From positions 1-37,381 of the forward strand of contig JANQFN010000521.1 of the NCBI GenBank assembly GCA_028277825.1: a DNA stretch of 37,381 nt, given 5' to 3'. The DNA is from Desulfarculaceae bacterium (GTDB taxonomy: Bacteria; Desulfobacterota; Desulfarculia; Desulfarculales; Desulfarculaceae). Numbering within the stretch: position 1 is the stretch's first letter; each line of letters begins with the position of its first letter. A program made the translations under genes and the position numbers. Below, piece after piece: positions 21,867 through 37,381 of the stretch. The notes beneath the pieces are model-generated. The model ran no database searches. It worked only from the letters and a program-made list of their open reading frames with translations, and was not told the DNA's origin.

Positions 21867-22975
21867 TGGCTCGAATCGATCACAGGCTTTTGGCCAACAT
21901 CCCCAATGCCCATATCGGGGGTTACTTGGGAGCCCAGCGGGCGACCCTGAACGACCTTCAAATGGACGCCCATGCCAGGCAGCAGCGACAAGAGGCCAAT
22001 TTGGGCAGCTTGTTTGCCAGCCGGGGGGAGGGCGAGACCTACGGCGAAATGGCCGCAAGGGGGGCCGACATGGGCCTTTCCCCCAACATGATCCTGCGAC
22101 TGGAGGGCATGGGACAGACCGAGCGGCAGATAGCCGCCAACGATCAACAACGCAGGATCGCCAATCAGCAAAGAGGGCGGGAGTTCGCCCTCAAAGAAGT
22201 CAATTCGTGGGCTTCTCGGCAAAAAGCCATTACTCAACAGTACATCAATGCCAAAGACCAGAAGGGGCTGGATGCCGCCATAGCCATGGCCAAGACCGAG
22301 GCGGCCAAATCCAAGAACCCGGGCATCAGGCGCATGGGCGAAATGATGCAGGGCATCACCATCGGTCAAAACGGTGAGGTGAACAAGTCCACAATGCGCA
22401 TGACCGGCAAGGAGGCCCGGGAAAGCCTTGGTGTCACCGGATATGACGACAACGATTACGTGGAAGTCACCGTTCAGACCAACACTAAGAACGTGTTGGG
22501 GTCCAAGGAGATTGATACGCCGAAAAAGCAAAAGGTCAAATCTTCGGTGCACACCCGGCAGAACCCAGAGACCGGCGAAACCGAAGTGGTGCGGGTGTAC
22601 GAGGATGGCCGGGAGCCGGTGGTTACGAATCTTGGTGTGGACCTCCGCACTGCGGATGCCACCAGAAAGGCCATCAACCAGGGGTTGGCGCTGATTAACA
22701 AGATACAGTCTGGCTCCGAACTGGATCAGTACATCAAGACCAAGTTGGCTGAAATCGGGGTGGAGGGTGCCACCGTTGAGGCGGGAGACAAGAAGACCAT
22801 AATCCGGGAAATCAAGGAAAATGTGGACGCGTTCAAGAAGCGCTTGAAGGTCATGGAAAAAGGGGGCGGCGGTGATGATTTGCCCCCTGGAGTGAGCGAG
22901 GCCGACATTCAGCACACCATGAAAGCGCACGGCTTGACCAGGGAGCAAGTTTTGGAGCGTCTGGGGAATAGATAA
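21866..22975 (+). CDS. putative ejection/internal virion protein
   Basis: 369-aa helical ORF in the ejection module. Confidence 0.5.
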   Translation: MARIDHRLLANIPNAHIGGYLGAQRATLNDLQMDAHARQQRQEANLGSLFASRGEGETYGEMAARGADMGLSPNMILRLEGMGQTERQIAANDQQRRIANQQRGREFALKEVNSWASRQKAITQQYINAKDQKGLDAAIAMAKTEAAKSKNPGIRRMGEMMQGITIGQNGEVNKSTMRMTGKEARESLGVTGYDDNDYVEVTVQTNTKNVLGSKEIDTPKKQKVKSSVHTRQNPETGETEVVRVYEDGREPVVTNLGVDLRTADATRKAINQGLALINKIQSGSELDQYIKTKLAEIGVEGATVEAGDKKTIIREIKENVDAFKKRLKVMEKGGGGDDLPPGVSEADIQHTMKAHGLTREQVLERLGNR

Positions 22976-25900
22976 TGCCAAGGGATTTGCTGGCACAACA
23001 ACCCAGAGACCTCTTGGCTGACCAGCCGAGGGATTTGCTGGCGGGCATGATGCCCGGATACGGCGCCGCCGCCGAGGGTGCACCTGTGCCTGGCGGGGAT
23101 TACGAGGCCGGCTTACAGGGCATTATGCAAACACCCTATACCCAGCCCCTACCCGAAGCCGTAGGGGCGATTGACGAGCTTGTTAGCCCCACCATTCAAG
23201 GGACATTACCGGGAAGCGGCTTAGTTGCCCCCGGCAATATCGACCTAAATAACCGGCCCAAAATCTACAACCCAGACGGGACGATCAGCACCGAGCTTTC
23301 CTTTAGCTTCAACGATGGACAGAATGAAGTTCTAATCCCCAGCATCGTCAACGGCCGGGTGCTTTCCCAGGAACAGGCCATACAACACTATTTCAACACC
23401 GGGGACCACCTAGGCAAGTTTGACTCTATTGAGGCCGCAAACGCCGCAGCCGAGCAAACCCACAACCGCAAGCAACCACAGCAAGACGAAACCACAATAG
23501 GCGGGGCCCTTATTGAAGGCATTAAAAACATCGCCAGGGGCCGCCTTGGAGCTATTCAGGGCGTTTTGGAGGCAGGTGGCCGGGATCAGTTTAGGACTGT
23601 GTACGAGCAGGCCGGTTGGGATCAGGCCACGCTGGACAAGATAGAGACGGAGGTAGACAAGGATGATCCTATTTTGCCAGCCGTCCGTAGGGCTGTTGAC
23701 TCCGAACTGCTAAAGCCCGATGAAGCGCAAGCCGGGTCCGATAGCTTGTTACATCAAGTAGTCCAGGCCGCGCCCGACTACGCCGCCATGATCGCCTCTG
23801 CCTTGGTGCATCCTGGCTTTGCGGCCGCAACTATCTCAAGCCAGTTGCTTGGTAGCTCATACCTAGAAAACCTTGAAAGCAGCGGAGATAGGGAGGCGTC
23901 CTTTACCGGGGCCCTGATTTCCACCGCCGGCCAGTTGCCCCTTGAGGCTATCGGTATAGGAAAGGTTACCAAACTGTTTACCAAGTCGCTTAATGGTCTT
24001 GCCAAAAGAGCCTTAGCGTCTGGCGAGGTTTCTTTGGTTGAGGGAGTTACGGAGGCTTTGCAGCGCTTGCCCGAAGTGGCGGGCAGCCTGTATGCCCAAA
24101 ACCCCAATGCTACTTTAGAGGAATTTGCACAGAAATTTGCCGACAGGATGCCCCATACCTTGCGGGAAGCTTGGCAGGCCGGCCAGGTGGGCGCAATTCT
24201 TGGCTTGGTGGGCGGTGGTGTTGTAGCCTCAACCCGCCCTTTGGGCGCATCCCCAAAAGAGCTTGGACTTTCCCAGTCACCCCAGCCGGCGGCAGAGGCC
24301 CCTGTGGCCGAACCGCCGGCAGCGCTCCAGCCACAATCACCCCCCATCCCCGGCGAGGCCCCCGCCCCTGGGCCGGAAGCAACCGCCACCGCCCTTTCGC
24401 CCGAGGCGGGAGTCTCGCCGGGCCTTCCTAGCGTTACTGCGCCGCAAAAGAAAGTAGCCCCTCCTGTGGTCAAAGCTGTGTCTCCCGAAGAATTCGCCAG
24501 GCTATCCATTGAACAGGGTGACATGATTAGGACGCCGGGACTGGCCTTGGCCGGAAAGGTGGTCGGCGAAGGCACGATTGGTAAAGGCATACCGGCCTGG
24601 AGGGTGGACGCGGGACCGCAGAAGGGCGAAACCCTGATTCCCAAAGACCAGGCCGAACTTTGGCAAAAGCCGGGATTTGAGGCCGTACAGGGGGTGAGTT
24701 CTCTTGAAGAGGCGGAGGCGCGGCTGGACCAAAGGGTAGATGAGAACATAGGCGAGGTGGTGCCTCCGGTGGGCCTATCGGTAAAACAGGTGGTCGCGCC
24801 GGTGGCGCCGGAAAGAGCCTCCACCTATCAATTCAAAGACCCAGAGACCGAGGAACGCTTTCAGGCCGCCAGGGGCGTGAAACGGGAAAGCCTGGCGGCC
24901 AAGACCAAGGCCGTCCTCACCTCCATCAAGAACAAGGCCACCAGGGAGTTTGAGCACCTGCCCCGGGGGGCCGAATTCGCCCCCATGAGAAGCGACCTTT
25001 TACGCATGGGCAAGGCCAGGGGCGTTGCCGAGGGTACGGCCACCAAATACATTCAGGGCATCACCACCGGCCTGAACAGCGCCTCATTCGAGATATTCCG
25101 CCGCAAGGTAATTTTGGATGATATGGCGGCTGAACTGGAGTCCAACCCGGATACTGATTTGGCCTTTGGGTTTACCCCCGAGACCCTGGGCGACGAGCTG
25201 GCCTCATTGAACGCACAGGTGGCGGCCATGCCGGAGGTGGCGCGTGCCCTGGAGGACCGCAAGGCGCTCTGGAGCGCACTGCCCGAAACATATATAGCAG
25301 CCATGAAGGACATTGGGTTCAATGTCGACAACCTCACCAAAAAGGATTATTTCAGGCGCCAGATATTGGCTTGGCAACAGGTGGACCGGATTGTCCAGGG
25401 GGCGGGCAGTAGGGCCAGAACCCCCGCCGGGCGCAGCCACTTGAAGAAGCGCACCGGCAAGGGCGGGCAGGACTACAACACCGATTACCTCCAAGCTGAA
25501 CACCAAGTTGTCTCTCAAATGCTGCACGACATGGAGGTGGCACGGCTGCTGAAGAACACCCGGGAAAACTACGACATCTCCGACACTTTGAAAAGGGAGG
25601 CCAAGGGAGAAGGGCTGGAAGATTGGCGGGGGTTGATTCCCGAGGGATATGTGGAGTGGCAGCCCAGGGAGGGGCACGCCTTTTATTTGGCCGACTCCAT
25701 CCCGGCCAAACTGGCCGAAGAAGTGGCCACCGGGCAGCTTGAGACCATCCTGGGCAAAAGCCTGGCGGGACAATTGCGTAAGGTCCTGGCCATGGGCCCC
25801 CGGCGCACCGCCTATGTGATTTCCCAGGAGGTGGCCGACACTCTGAATAACATCTCACAGTCCAAGTCGCATAACTTCATGGGTGAAGCCAGCCGAAAGC

Positions 25901-27510
25901 TGCTGAGAAGCTGGAAGCGATGGACTTTGATTTCCCCCCGCCGGTACTTCAAGTACAACCTGCGCAACTTGACCGGCGACGCGGAGGCGATGTTCGTGGG
26001 CAACCCTCGCGCCTTTTTGAAGGTGCCCCAGGCCACCGGTGAGTTGTTTGATGTGTATTACGGCAAAAAGGCGCTCACTCCAGAGATGAAGGAGTGGTTC
26101 TCCCGGGGCGGCACTTTGGGTAATTTGCAGGTTCAGGAGATGGGCGCAATCAGCGGTTTGTCCACTTTTAAAAAGCTGATGGACAAAAAGGACGCGGGCA
26201 AGAAAAACCTCAATGTCTGGAAAAAGTACTGGGAGCTGGCCCGGATCAGTACCGACATGCGCGAGGGCATTCTGAGGTACGCCGCCTATTTAGACTATTT
26301 GGGCCAGATGAAAAAAAGTCCGGACGGGCGGCCCAAGAATTTTGGCGCCTCCCGGCCAGAAGAGGTGATGGCCCTTAAGGATATCCACGACCGGGCCTAC
26401 TGGCTGTCCAACGAACTGCTGGGGGCCTATGACCGGGTGTCTGTGGCGGGCCAGGGCATGAGGGAGCACCTGTATCCCTTCTGGTCATGGAAAGAGGTGA
26501 ACTTCAAGCGGTATGTGGGGCTGTTCAAAAACGCCACTGAGGACCGCAAGCTAGCCGGGGCGGTGGGGCGCAAAGTTTTGGGCAAGGCCGCCAACCCCAT
26601 AACCTACATTCGCGTTGGGCGCTTTGTCATCATGGCCTCGGCCTTCTGGGGCGGGCTTCAAGCTTACAACCATCTTTTCTGGCCGGAAGAGGAAAAAGAG
26701 TTGCCGGCGGAGGTGCGCAACCGGACCCACATCGTTTTGGGCCGGGACTCCGACGGCAAGGTGATGTATTTCTCCCGGCTGGGCACCCTGGGCGATTTTC
26801 TGGAGTGGTTCGGGCTGGACGCTGCCCCGCAACATTTCCAGGCCTGGGCCAACGGCGTGGCCAGCGTGGCGGATATCGCTAAGCATATAGCAGAAGCGCC
26901 GCTAAAGATGCTGATCCAGGGCGCCACCCCGTTTTTCAAAACCCCAGCCGAGGTGATCACCCGCAGAAACCTTTTCCCGGACCCACTAAACCCGGGAACC
27001 ATCAGGGACCGTGGCCTGCATATTGCCCGTTCGCTGGGTTTGGAGAACGAGTACAAGGCCCTGATGGGAGTGCCCGGCGAACCCTATGCCGAAACCTTAC
27101 CCAAGGCCTTCATCTATAAGTCCGACCCGTTTGAGGCTGGCTACCGGGACATCCTGAGCGCCAAGCGAGAGTTTTTGGAAAAGGAGGGCAAGGGGTCCGA
27201 GGGCTTCTGGATCACTCCCAGGGGCAACGCCCTTTATTACCTTAAGCTGGCCTGGCGCTACGGACAGAAAAAAGAGGCAGCCAAGTATTACCAGGAATAC
27301 CGGGCCCTGGGCGGAACGGATAAGGGCATGAGGCGGTCCCTGGAAACCATGAACCCGCTGTACGGCCTTGATCCGGTGGAGACCGTCAAGTTCCTGGACG
27401 GCCTGGACGACAGCCAAAAAAACGCCCTAGTCAGGGCCATAGCGTTTTACAACTACACGCTGCTTGGGGGCCAGAAGGTGCCCAAAAAGAAAGCTTTTAA
27501 GGGGGAATAA
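22975..27510 (+). CDS. giant (1511 aa) internal virion / polyvalent-like protein
   Basis: N-terminal PRDLLA triplicate; KIYNPDGTISTELSFSFNDGQNEVLIPSIVNGRVLSQEQAIQHYFNTGDHLGKFDSIEAANAAAEQTHNR domain seen in podovirus internal virion proteins; position after other ejection genes. Confidence 0.6.
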   Translation: MPRDLLAQQPRDLLADQPRDLLAGMMPGYGAAAEGAPVPGGDYEAGLQGIMQTPYTQPLPEAVGAIDELVSPTIQGTLPGSGLVAPGNIDLNNRPKIYNPDGTISTELSFSFNDGQNEVLIPSIVNGRVLSQEQAIQHYFNTGDHLGKFDSIEAANAAAEQTHNRKQPQQDETTIGGALIEGIKNIARGRLGAIQGVLEAGGRDQFRTVYEQAGWDQATLDKIETEVDKDDPILPAVRRAVDSELLKPDEAQAGSDSLLHQVVQAAPDYAAMIASALVHPGFAAATISSQLLGSSYLENLESSGDREASFTGALISTAGQLPLEAIGIGKVTKLFTKSLNGLAKRALASGEVSLVEGVTEALQRLPEVAGSLYAQNPNATLEEFAQKFADRMPHTLREAWQAGQVGAILGLVGGGVVASTRPLGASPKELGLSQSPQPAAEAPVAEPPAALQPQSPPIPGEAPAPGPEATATALSPEAGVSPGLPSVTAPQKKVAPPVVKAVSPEEFARLSIEQGDMIRTPGLALAGKVVGEGTIGKGIPAWRVDAGPQKGETLIPKDQAELWQKPGFEAVQGVSSLEEAEARLDQRVDENIGEVVPPVGLSVKQVVAPVAPERASTYQFKDPETEERFQAARGVKRESLAAKTKAVLTSIKNKATREFEHLPRGAEFAPMRSDLLRMGKARGVAEGTATKYIQGITTGLNSASFEIFRRKVILDDMAAELESNPDTDLAFGFTPETLGDELASLNAQVAAMPEVARALEDRKALWSALPETYIAAMKDIGFNVDNLTKKDYFRRQILAWQQVDRIVQGAGSRARTPAGRSHLKKRTGKGGQDYNTDYLQAEHQVVSQMLHDMEVARLLKNTRENYDISDTLKREAKGEGLEDWRGLIPEGYVEWQPREGHAFYLADSIPAKLAEEVATGQLETILGKSLAGQLRKVLAMGPRRTAYVISQEVADTLNNISQSKSHNFMGEASRKLLRSWKRWTLISPRRYFKYNLRNLTGDAEAMFVGNPRAFLKVPQATGELFDVYYGKKALTPEMKEWFSRGGTLGNLQVQEMGAISGLSTFKKLMDKKDAGKKNLNVWKKYWELARISTDMREGILRYAAYLDYLGQMKKSPDGRPKNFGASRPEEVMALKDIHDRAYWLSNELLGAYDRVSVAGQGMREHLYPFWSWKEVNFKRYVGLFKNATEDRKLAGAVGRKVLGKAANPITYIRVGRFVIMASAFWGGLQAYNHLFWPEEEKELPAEVRNRTHIVLGRDSDGKVMYFSRLGTLGDFLEWFGLDAAPQHFQAWANGVASVADIAKHIAEAPLKMLIQGATPFFKTPAEVITRRNLFPDPLNPGTIRDRGLHIARSLGLENEYKALMGVPGEPYAETLPKAFIYKSDPFEAGYRDILSAKREFLEKEGKGSEGFWITPRGNALYYLKLAWRYGQKKEAAKYYQEYRALGGTDKGMRRSLETMNPLYGLDPVETVKFLDGLDDSQKNALVRAIAFYNYTLLGGQKVPKKKAFKGE

Positions 27511-31917: not shown

Positions 31918-32361
31918 TTATTCCTTCTGCTCTAAGCCCTCCGGCGGCTCCGGCACCTGGGCCTTTTGCCAGAGGCCGGGCCACTCCTTAACAGCGGGGG
32001 ACGCGTACAGGCCATTAACTGGGGACAGAAATTTTTCTCCGTTGAGATACGTATTTTTGCGCTCAAGATATAGTTCAATGCCCTTCACCCGGCCACCGAT
32101 TGAATACCACCAAAGGCCCGGCTCCGTGGGCTCGTCAACCCAAAAGCCGGGGCGGGGCAGGGCGTTCCAGGCGGCTATGGCCGCTTCTTTTGAACAGCAT
32201 TTGGGGCCGCCCATTTCGCAGAGGTCAATACCAAAGTTGCCAGTGCAATAGACCCAATAGGTATCTTCTGGATAGCTACTAAGCCGACAGTCGTAATGCG
32301 CTTCCTTGACGCGCAACCCTTCGCTGTTTCCGCATGCTGGACACGGTTTTATCTCAGCCAT
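31918..32361 (-). CDS. Lar-like (restriction alleviation family) Zn protein
   Basis: IKPCPACGNSEGLRV...YWVYCTGNFGIDLCEMGGPKCCSKEAAIAAWN matches the Lar-type CPxCG...EAIxAWN layout. Confidence 0.6.
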   Translation of the reverse strand: MAEIKPCPACGNSEGLRVKEAHYDCRLSSYPEDTYWVYCTGNFGIDLCEMGGPKCCSKEAAIAAWNALPRPGFWVDEPTEPGLWWYSIGGRVKGIELYLERKNTYLNGEKFLSPVNGLYASPAVKEWPGLWQKAQVPEPPEGLEQKE

Positions 32362-34984: not shown

Positions 34985-35446
34985 CTACGCGGCCCTTCTT
35001 ATAATGGCCCGGTATTTGGCTATAAATCTGTTGGTGCCGGCAAAATTGAGGTGCTGGATTGCGCTCTCCACGTCCTCACCAAACCGCTGCACACGCGCCC
35101 AGGTGTGCACGTTGGGATATATTTTGTTTGCCGGGTTGTGCCAAAATCGCGGGGGCAGGTCTTTTATAAAGTTAAAAAGGTCACAGTCGTAATGGATTAT
35201 CTCCTTAGGGGGGTACGAGTGGATACGTAAAATTACTGGATAAGCCGTCCCGTCCCATGGCAATATTTCTTTTACCGAAGCACCGCCTATCATGCCGCTT
35301 GGTCTGCGACCACCAATGTAGTCGACCAGTTCGCCCGACTCCACAAAGGGTGGCCTTCTGCGATCAAACACAAGCGGCATGGGCAGCGTGGCTACAGCTA
35401 TCCCAGACGCCAAAGATTTTAGAAACTGCCTTCTGGTTATGCCCAC
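34985..35446 (-). CDS. protein with N-terminal Tat signal peptide, unknown function
   Basis: GTG start with GGAGGTGA RBS; MGITRRQFLKSLASGIAVATLPMPLV contains canonical (S/T)RRxFLK plus hydrophobic stretch. Confidence 0.7.
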   Translation of the reverse strand: MGITRRQFLKSLASGIAVATLPMPLVFDRRRPPFVESGELVDYIGGRRPSGMIGGASVKEILPWDGTAYPVILRIHSYPPKEIIHYDCDLFNFIKDLPPRFWHNPANKIYPNVHTWARVQRFGEDVESAIQHLNFAGTNRFIAKYRAIIRRAA

Positions 35447-35462
35447 CTGATCACCTCCAAAC

Positions 35463-35514
35463 AAAAAACCCCCCAGAGCCGCCTGTCATACATCTGTCAG
35501 ACGGTTTTGGGGGG
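35463..35514 (-). terminator. leftward intrinsic terminator/attenuator-like hairpin upstream of Tat-signal gene
   Basis: Minus strand: CCCCCC...CCG(loop)CGG...GGGGGG followed by TTTTTT. Confidence 0.6.
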
Positions 35515-35635
35515 TATGCTGCTAGTAATGTATTGGAATTTATTGTGAAAAATGGTGCCGTCGGCCGGATTTGAACCGGCTTCGGCTCCAATGATATCGG
35601 TGACTTACGAATCATTTGTCATACGCCTGTCAGAC
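35484..35635. repeat. two pairs of TGTCAKAC repeats (11-bp period) flanking a tRNA 3' fragment: candidate attP arm-type sites
   Basis: TGTCATAC 35484-35491, TGTCAGAC 35495-35502, TGTCATAC 35617-35624, TGTCAGAC 35628-35635. Confidence 0.65.
35553..35590 (-). other. attP: tRNA 3'-end fragment (T-arm, acceptor 3' strand, CCA), candidate attP core
   Basis: Minus strand TGGAGCCGAAGCCGGTTCAAATCCGGCCGACGGCACCA: T-arm GCCGG-TTCAAAT-CCGGC then CGACGGC-A-CCA; no matching 5' GCCGTCG acceptor strand upstream. Confidence 0.75.
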
Positions 35636-35775
35636 TTGAGCCGCCTCCACAGGCGACGATACCATTTGTTCTGGCGCTTGGCCTCTGTCTTTTCGTGCAT
35701 GGCTACAAACATGCGGTCAATATCGTCGGCGTACAGGCACGGTTTGCCGTCAGGACCTTTCCCCACGTAGACCAT
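35605..35775 (-). CDS. small basic protein MVYVGKGPDGKPCLYADDIDRMFVAMHEKTEAKRQNKWYRRLWRRLKSDRRMTNDS
   Basis: 56-aa ORF with AAGGAG RBS; below the track cutoff. Confidence 0.55.
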   Translation of the reverse strand: MVYVGKGPDGKPCLYADDIDRMFVAMHEKTEAKRQNKWYRRLWRRLKSDRRMTNDS

Positions 35776-35818
35776 CGCGGTTTCTCCTTGTTTCGATGCT
35801 CATCATCACCTCTGCGCC

Positions 35819-36070
35819 CTACGTAAAATAGGCCCAACATTCCTCATCTTCATTCGCGTGCCAGCCCAAGGCTTGGAGCAAAATACCGTCTTGGGAATCT
35901 TCGGGAATGTCGTTTATGGAGGGGCCCGCATAAATAATATCGTGCTGGGCATCAAGAGAGTATTTGGTTTGAAGCCCCTCTGATTCGTGCTTGGCTAATA
36001 TCTCTAGGGCAGCAATAAAGCCCTCAAGGCTTTTTGCCCTTGGGTCGCTGTTATAAATTTCGTCACTCAT
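35819..36070 (-). CDS. hypothetical protein
   Basis: ORF overlapping its neighbour by the start/stop. Confidence 0.6.
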   Translation of the reverse strand: MSDEIYNSDPRAKSLEGFIAALEILAKHESEGLQTKYSLDAQHDIIYAGPSINDIPEDSQDGILLQALGWHANEDEECWAYFT

Positions 36071-36324
36071 GTCTCGCCTCCATCAGCCATCGGGTGTGTC
36101 AATATGCCGTCCATGATTTCGCTTATTGTTTTTATCCTTGCTGTGACGATCAATTCGCCCGCCTCGCCAAGCTTGGCGTCGACAACATGCTGAAAAAATC
36201 TTGTGTCCACAAAATCCTTGTGCTTGACAACGAGGGGTTCGCCACGTTCTTTCTGCAACAGATAAAGCAGAGCTTTCAGGTTTTTGTTTTCCTTCTCATA
36301 TTCCAGGGCTTTCCAAAGTGGCAT
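36067..36324 (-). CDS. hypothetical protein (MPLWKALEYEKENKNLKALLYLLQKERGE...)
   Basis: ATG 36324 immediately after the integrase stop, RBS ggagtg. Confidence 0.6.
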   Translation of the reverse strand: MPLWKALEYEKENKNLKALLYLLQKERGEPLVVKHKDFVDTRFFQHVVDAKLGEAGELIVTARIKTISEIMDGILTHPMADGGET

Positions 36325-36325
36325 A

Positions 36326-37381
36326 TCACTCCATCCTTCTAAGTCTTCCTGCCGCCTGGTAAATGTCCCTAGACGGCTGCGCCTTGTGCTGCATGTAGCG
36401 CTCGAACGCCTTGTTGGTGGCGTGCATGGTGCCGCTGTCGCGGAGTTCGTCTTTGGTAAAGTGCTCCCCAAGAGCCGACGCGGTCGAATGCCTGGTGCCC
36501 CCGTAAAGGTCCACGCCCTTGACGCCCACCTCTTTGCAGGCGGCTATCCAGTTGCGCCAAAACATTTCCCTTGCAAACTGCTTTCCATTCGAGTGCCGAA
36601 AAAAGAACAGGTCCGGGAAGCCCCGGGGCAGGGAGCGGTATAGCTCAATGTCCTCATCCAGCATGGGAACCAGCTTGGGGCTTTTTTCCTTTGGTGAGGG
36701 GATCACCAGAAATCCGTTTACATCGATGTCCCGCTCCCTGAGGGCGCGCATTTCGCCGGGCCGGATGGCTATATAGTCGGCCAGCCACTTTATGCCGATC
36801 CATATCCGGGGGTTGCGCTCCCAGGTCATTTCCTTGATCTTGGCCAGCACCCTGGCTTGGGTCTGCATGTCAATGATGTTCCGCCAGCCAAGCTCATAGT
36901 TGATTTCTGGCATCTCGGGAGCGGGAATGCCCTCGCGTTTCTGGAGCCAGCCGAAAAACTGGCCGAGGGTGGCCCTGGCGTTGAACCGGGTTTTGTCCCC
37001 GACCTTCATAGCCAACAGCCAGTCCTCTATTTGGGCATACTGGATCAGCTTGCAATTGGTCTGGCCCCACTCAACAATGGCCTTGTCCATGTCGCGCTTG
37101 ATGTCGCGATAGGAGTTGGGCTTGACCTGCTGGGCCTTGACCTTGAGCCACTTTTTAGCCTGAGTTTCAAAACCAAGGGGAAAGTTGGTCCGATAGTCCC
37201 GGGGGTCGAACAGGCCGCGGTCATCGTCGCAGCGACAAGTGTTTAAAAAGCGGGCGGCCTGGGCGTAGTCCTTGAAACGCTTCATCACCTTACGGCCGTA
37301 TTGGACACGGAAGCGGCTGGCTCGAACCTCGGGGTGGTCTGGGCATAGAACGGCTTGCTTGCGCTCATTGTGCTGCAGGAT
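36326..37381 (-). CDS. int: tyrosine recombinase / phage integrase, 5' truncated by window edge
   Basis: IRPGEMRALRERDI (catalytic R), YGGTRHSTASAL (HxxR-box region), NKAFERYM (Tyr); frame open upstream of the track's start (…HPEVRASRFRVQYGRKVMKRFKDY) to base 37381. Confidence 0.88.
   Translation of the reverse strand: MLQHNERKQAVLCPDHPEVRASRFRVQYGRKVMKRFKDYAQAARFLNTCRCDDDRGLFDPRDYRTNFPLGFETQAKKWLKVKAQQVKPNSYRDIKRDMDKAIVEWGQTNCKLIQYAQIEDWLLAMKVGDKTRFNARATLGQFFGWLQKREGIPAPEMPEINYELGWRNIIDMQTQARVLAKIKEMTWERNPRIWIGIKWLADYIAIRPGEMRALRERDIDVNGFLVIPSPKEKSPKLVPMLDEDIELYRSLPRGFPDLFFFRHSNGKQFAREMFWRNWIAACKEVGVKGVDLYGGTRHSTASALGEHFTKDELRDSGTMHATNKAFERYMQHKAQPSRDIYQAAGRLRRME

Follow-up and report, generated by a model that had tools for sequence, protein, structure and literature searches.

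In phage lambda, the attP core is flanked on either side by integrase arm sites, with IHF sites lying in between (PMC4880445). In Cluster J mycobacteriophages such as Omega and BAKA, a tRNA-Leu core is flanked on each side by arm sites in pairs (PMC3706429). Genomic islands of the Islander type, which occupy tRNA and tmRNA genes, have been described as restoring the tRNA gene that they split and displacing a fragment of it (PMC4383910).

Here we describe a site at positions 35484-35635 of a contig from a genome bin that, as judged from its sequence, is very probably the attP with which a temperate, podovirus-like phage of the Desulfarculales would target tRNA-Leu(GAG), and which has a predicted arm-bend-core plan. 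Like lambda attP, this site has a core with predicted arms on both sides; its candidate IHF-like sites, which lie between core and arms, are weak. The predicted fold of the accompanying integrase matches lambda Int structures. It differs from lambda in its size (about 152 bp, compared with the 240-bp lambda att site), in having one arm-site pair per side and in using a tRNA 3' end as its core; no Xis or Fis sites were identified within it. The attP of Cluster J differs in its 44-bp core, the left end of which lies in the anticodon loop, and in its arm consensus TGCATAC. No close sequence relation to that cluster was found, the best matches among phage records being two Streptococcus phages (E 4e-6). 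The element would restore a tRNA gene as Islander-type islands do, but the copy described here has the un-integrated attP form. Paired arms around a tRNA-Leu core and the arm-IHF-core plan are already known, and the interesting part is a geometry that extends across the integrase family.

Genomic context and parts of the probable attachment site

The window, by which we mean the whole stretch of DNA analysed (37,381 bases), is the complete contig C78 from a 640-contig genome bin that is 92% complete. It is cut within a dnaB-like helicase gene on the left and within a tyrosine integrase gene on the right, and an end-overlap search found no overlap of these ends with each other or with any other contig; the assembly is therefore incomplete, which in a draft does not speak against a free phage. 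Because it carries genes for a terminase, an SU10-like portal protein, a capsid protein, a connector, and ejection and tail proteins, all of which run rightward, C78 is a podovirus-like temperate phage. Relatives of its terminase are present in IMG/VR at up to 53-54% identity, some of them on contigs of 44-48 kb. The terminase had no match in 59 related genomes, and thus no prophage of the same phage was found among them; a search of plasmids gave no match. Elsewhere on the contig, a 1511-aa protein (22975-27510) without a PHROGs match is probably virion-associated, and the minus-strand stretch 31918-32361 weakly matches Lar-like restriction alleviation proteins (E 6e-5).

A preliminary description of this DNA had reported the same repeat pair on either side of a tRNA fragment, and the letters are exactly as it gave them: on the forward strand the two pairs read TGTCATAC-ATC-TGTCAGAC (35484-35502) and TGTCATAC-GCC-TGTCAGAC (35617-35635). 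All four copies of TGTCAKAC in the window are located at this site, with 0.95 copies expected and at least four found in 1 of 100 shuffles. Two identical 8-N3-8 pairs within 200 bp occur once in the window and in 0 of 60 dinucleotide shuffles. On these two counts, chance repeats were rejected as an explanation. The tRNA fragment, previously drawn at 35553-35590, proved shorter: its first 28 nt are identical to the host tRNA, while 35581-35590 are not tRNA (Table 1). A tRNA gene search found no tRNA gene in the window. Cleavage positions derived from the tyrosine-integrase rule would probably place a 7-bp overlap at 35569-35575.

Table 1. Coordinates of the predicted attachment-site parts and neighbouring genes in the window. 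Offsets are relative to the T-loop.
Feature	Position	Strand	Description
Terminator-like hairpin + TTTTTT	35462..35515	-	Encloses P arm; -29.1 kcal/mol, z -3.7
P arm	35484..35502	-	Predicted integrase arm-type pair, minus strand GTCTGACA-GAT-GTATGACA; start +73
IHF-like site, P side	35526..35538	-	TTCCAATACATTA, 2 mismatches; offset +37
tRNA identity block	35553..35580	-	28 nt, exact copy of host tRNA-Leu(GAG) 3' end (T-arm, acceptor, CCA)
Core	35564..35580	-	T-arm inverted repeat GCCGG-TTCAAAT-CCGGC
IHF-like site, P' side	35595..35607	+	TATCGGTGACTTA, 2 mismatches to WATCAANNNNTTR; offset -32; weak alone
Candidate 56-aa ORF	35605..35775	-	Last codons overlap P' arm; no trustworthy family match
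P' arm	35617..35635	-	Predicted integrase arm-type pair, minus strand GTCTGACA-GGC-GTATGACA; start -60; offset as in G006 and G004 prophages
83-aa ORF	35819..36070	-	Between int and attP
85-aa ORF	36067..36324	-	Directly after int
Tyrosine integrase (int)	36326..37381	-	351 aa present; 5' end lost at contig end; otherwise uninterrupted

The hairpin that encloses the P arm was not listed by a simple terminator scan because the model used by that scan accepts only stems without interruptions and loops of 3-8. Together with its six T, this hairpin could terminate transcription of a restored tRNA, and relatives have different hairpins at the same place. The genes flanking the att site on both sides are those of the phage contig, and the int gene said to lie nearby is indeed that of a tyrosine integrase. 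Directly adjoining attP, the minus-strand gene at 34985-35464 encodes a 159-aa protein with a predicted twin-arginine export signal; once integrated, this gene would adjoin the tRNA gene, and such cargo is unusual for a phage. On the other side, int is separated from attP by roughly 690 bp (35636-36325) that contain two or three small ORFs, unlike in the close relatives G004 and G006, where the arm pair abuts or overlaps the end of int.

The host tRNA gene and integrated relatives of the phage

A search with the core identified its counterpart among the host tRNA genes: an intact tRNA-Leu(GAG) gene on contig C162, from the same bin as C78, shares the 28-mer exactly. Downstream of this gene, C162 is unrelated to the P side of the phage and carries no arm pair, which leaves attB empty, and neither attL, attR nor any other hybrid junction was found in the bin at its 92% completeness. 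The 28-mer is present in all seven same-genus genomes; hits in named genomes were confined to Desulfarculus, Desulfarculaceae, Desulfocarbo, Dethiosulfatarculus and a few bins whose names go no further than proteobacterial rank, and viral contigs gave no match to it.

Three same-genus prophages (G006, G004 and G003) occupy the same tRNA gene. G006 has two copies of the 28-mer 20.9 kb apart, of which the one at attL (521689) completes a full tRNA-Leu gene and the one at attR (500811) adjoins a broken, decayed relative of the window int. Joined together, the flanks of this prophage give an empty site whose alignment with that of G001 is colinear across 695 bp (82% identity). In G004, attR is on contig C90 and attL, with the tRNA, on C3, and an integrase 60% identical to that of the window lies beside one junction, while G003 has kept the tRNA-side junction and an integrase remnant. 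The attL, attR and empty forms proposed for comparison in the preliminary description were all found at this tRNA gene; at the level of assembled sequence they show integration there, with attL and attR known only for relatives of the window phage.

Relative to the leading T of the T-loop TTC, the window and all three prophages have an 11-bp-spaced pair that starts at exactly +73, and the window and the two prophages for which the second junction was found (G006 and G004) have another that starts at exactly -60. The arm sequences themselves differ among the window and these prophages (GTMTGACA, GTCTGRCA, GTTTCCCA and GTTGGCCA). Each junction of an integrated relative carries only half of the arrangement seen in the window, where both arms flank the core, so that the window copy is un-recombined, as had been claimed. 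Of the conditions that the preliminary description named as refuting its reading, those open to sequence comparison all left that reading standing. The empty attB on C162 and the lack of a hybrid junction in the bin likewise indicate that the contig holds an un-recombined attP. As far as the att site shows, these data support the derivation of the contig from an un-integrated phage molecule. The earlier suggestion of a free or excised phage is supported for this molecule to that extent; a virion, an excised circle and the internal junction of a tandem prophage would look alike at this site.

The integrase and its predicted arm sites

In a structure model of the integrase, strands and a helix at the N-terminus are followed by a helical core-binding domain and then a catalytic domain (pLDDT 78.6, low at residues 290-334, where the catalytic end is poorly modelled), and Foldseek matched it to the lambda, Xer and Tn1549 integrases. 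Of the catalytic set Arg, Lys, His-x-x-Arg, His/Trp and Tyr, alignment placed R207, R297, H320 and Y329 in the window integrase. The position at which tyrosine recombinases usually have the His of HxxR is Gly or Pro in the family, and the window integrase has no His there. In three relatives (L009, L025 and L011), Lys replaces the second catalytic Arg at the position of R297 (GTKHS). Family matches of the phage proteins identified no recombination directionality factor gene.

Mean arm similarity was 7.8 of 8 positions among the five integrase pairs whose N-terminal domains resemble each other most, with an overall mean of 5.4 (permutation p 5e-5). When every integrase pair was included, a Mantel test gave no significant trend (rho 0.03, p 0.34); the link between arm and N-terminal domain therefore rests on the close pairs, and arm similarity partly mirrors the overall relatedness of the integrases. 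L009 and L025, which are both elements of a single genome, and L011 have near-identical N-terminal domains and identical GTTATCAG arms, with catalytic domains that are only 56-71% identical and with tRNA-His, -Ser and -Glu as their targets. These three look as though the arm-binding domain had been swapped, together with its sites, as a module. The window also shares GTNTGACA with L084, a distant member at a tmRNA gene, the N-terminal domains of the two being 56% and the catalytic domains 42% identical. Because arm sequence follows the integrase N-terminal domain, the octamer pairs look like integrase arm sites.

Proposed integration reaction and alternative explanations

In the reaction that we propose, the N-terminal domain of the integrase would bind the octamer pairs as arm sites, and a protein of the IHF/HU type would bend the DNA at about -32 and +37, a bending that would let arm-bound integrase subunits also reach the core. 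The bin encodes four HU/IHF-type proteins, all of which score below the curated himA cut-off. Strand exchange between attP and the tRNA gene would take place within the 7-bp T-loop TTCAAAT. Integration would then rebuild an intact tRNA gene from its own 5' part and the phage-borne 3' end, and the rebuilt gene would be followed by the terminator-like hairpin of the phage.

Direct repeats one DNA turn apart are also the form in which sites for recombination directionality factors have been described (PMC7498355), and the octamer pairs might accordingly be bound by an excision factor (RDF/Xis) rather than by the integrase. We consider this very improbable: the pairs flank the core on both sides in the same orientation and at fixed offsets, and their sequence follows the integrase N-terminal domain, L009, L025 and L011 sharing their arms despite different tRNAs. 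Another alternative is that the contig spans the junction inside a tandem double prophage, with an attP-like site between the two integrated copies, and does not come from a free phage.

Such a junction would look identical on the contig, which is not closed. Against it, no attL or attR of this phage was found in the bin, and the sequence after the tRNA-Leu gene of the bin is unrelated and has no arm pair, which makes a tandem junction unlikely in our view. Fragments of tRNA 3' ends are common debris of old integrations, and G006 and G003 hold such remnants; the window could in principle contain a fragment of this kind beside chromosomal genes, or a chance resemblance to a tRNA. An exact 28-nt match, two intact arm pairs at the offsets of the family, flanking phage genes to the left and right and an integrase gene without interruption render that origin scarcely credible.

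Site geometry across the integrase family

Searches of viral and genome contigs with peptide patterns gave no close relatives of the integrase; whole-genome and profile searches found relatives, and a profile of eight integrases recovered members across the phylum and on 42 IMG/VR contigs. Targets in this family are the genes, or the 3' ends of the genes, for tRNA-Leu, -Ser, -His, -Glu, -Arg, -Pro, -Asp and -Met and for tmRNA. A result of 14 of 14 was obtained with loci picked for having a pair, and the set to trust is therefore an unselected one, drawn from viral contigs chosen only by the presence of an integrase and a T-loop core, in which 15 sites had enough sequence. An 11-bp-spaced pair was found at +65..+80 in eight of these 15 sites, with no pair at any other spacing from 7 to 17 and none at control positions with spacing 11. 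Pairs were absent from all 12 tRNA-Leu sites that lack such an element.

A match to the IHF consensus with at most two mismatches lies at exactly +37 in 15 of 34 family sites, compared with an average of 0.24 per position, one of the 15 being L049, in which a terminator stem resembles the consensus. On the P' side, a reverse-oriented IHF-like site is present at -32 in four family sites, the window included. We tentatively propose, as an idea that we find slightly more doubtful than secure, that a phylum-wide integrase clade shares one fixed att grammar, with an arm pair at -60, a bend at -32, the T-loop core, a bend at +37 and an arm pair at +73, in which the arms change with the integrase N-terminal domain and the tRNA or tmRNA targets change separately. 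In the literature searched, with most subscription journals outside its scope, we found no earlier account of an integrase clade in which a -60/+73 geometry is fixed throughout.

If this grammar is true, attP and arm specificity could be read from sequence, and for this clade the att site, the arm motif and the exact insertion point would be predictable from the position of the tRNA T-loop. Such a rule would help to delimit prophages, to distinguish free phage contigs in metagenomes from integrated ones and to select integrases for use as tools in unusual bacteria. The restriction of the 28-mer to Desulfarculales-type genomes and bins of proteobacterial rank helps host assignment.

Three other family members, L013 (G055, contig C91), L155 and L137 (IMG/VR), have further apparently un-recombined attP sites, in which pairs flank the 3' end of a tRNA or tmRNA. 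The family does not have a single orientation of int with respect to the core. In L008 (G036), int is found at the CCA side of the target tRNA, the reverse of the window arrangement, and the pair is at +64.
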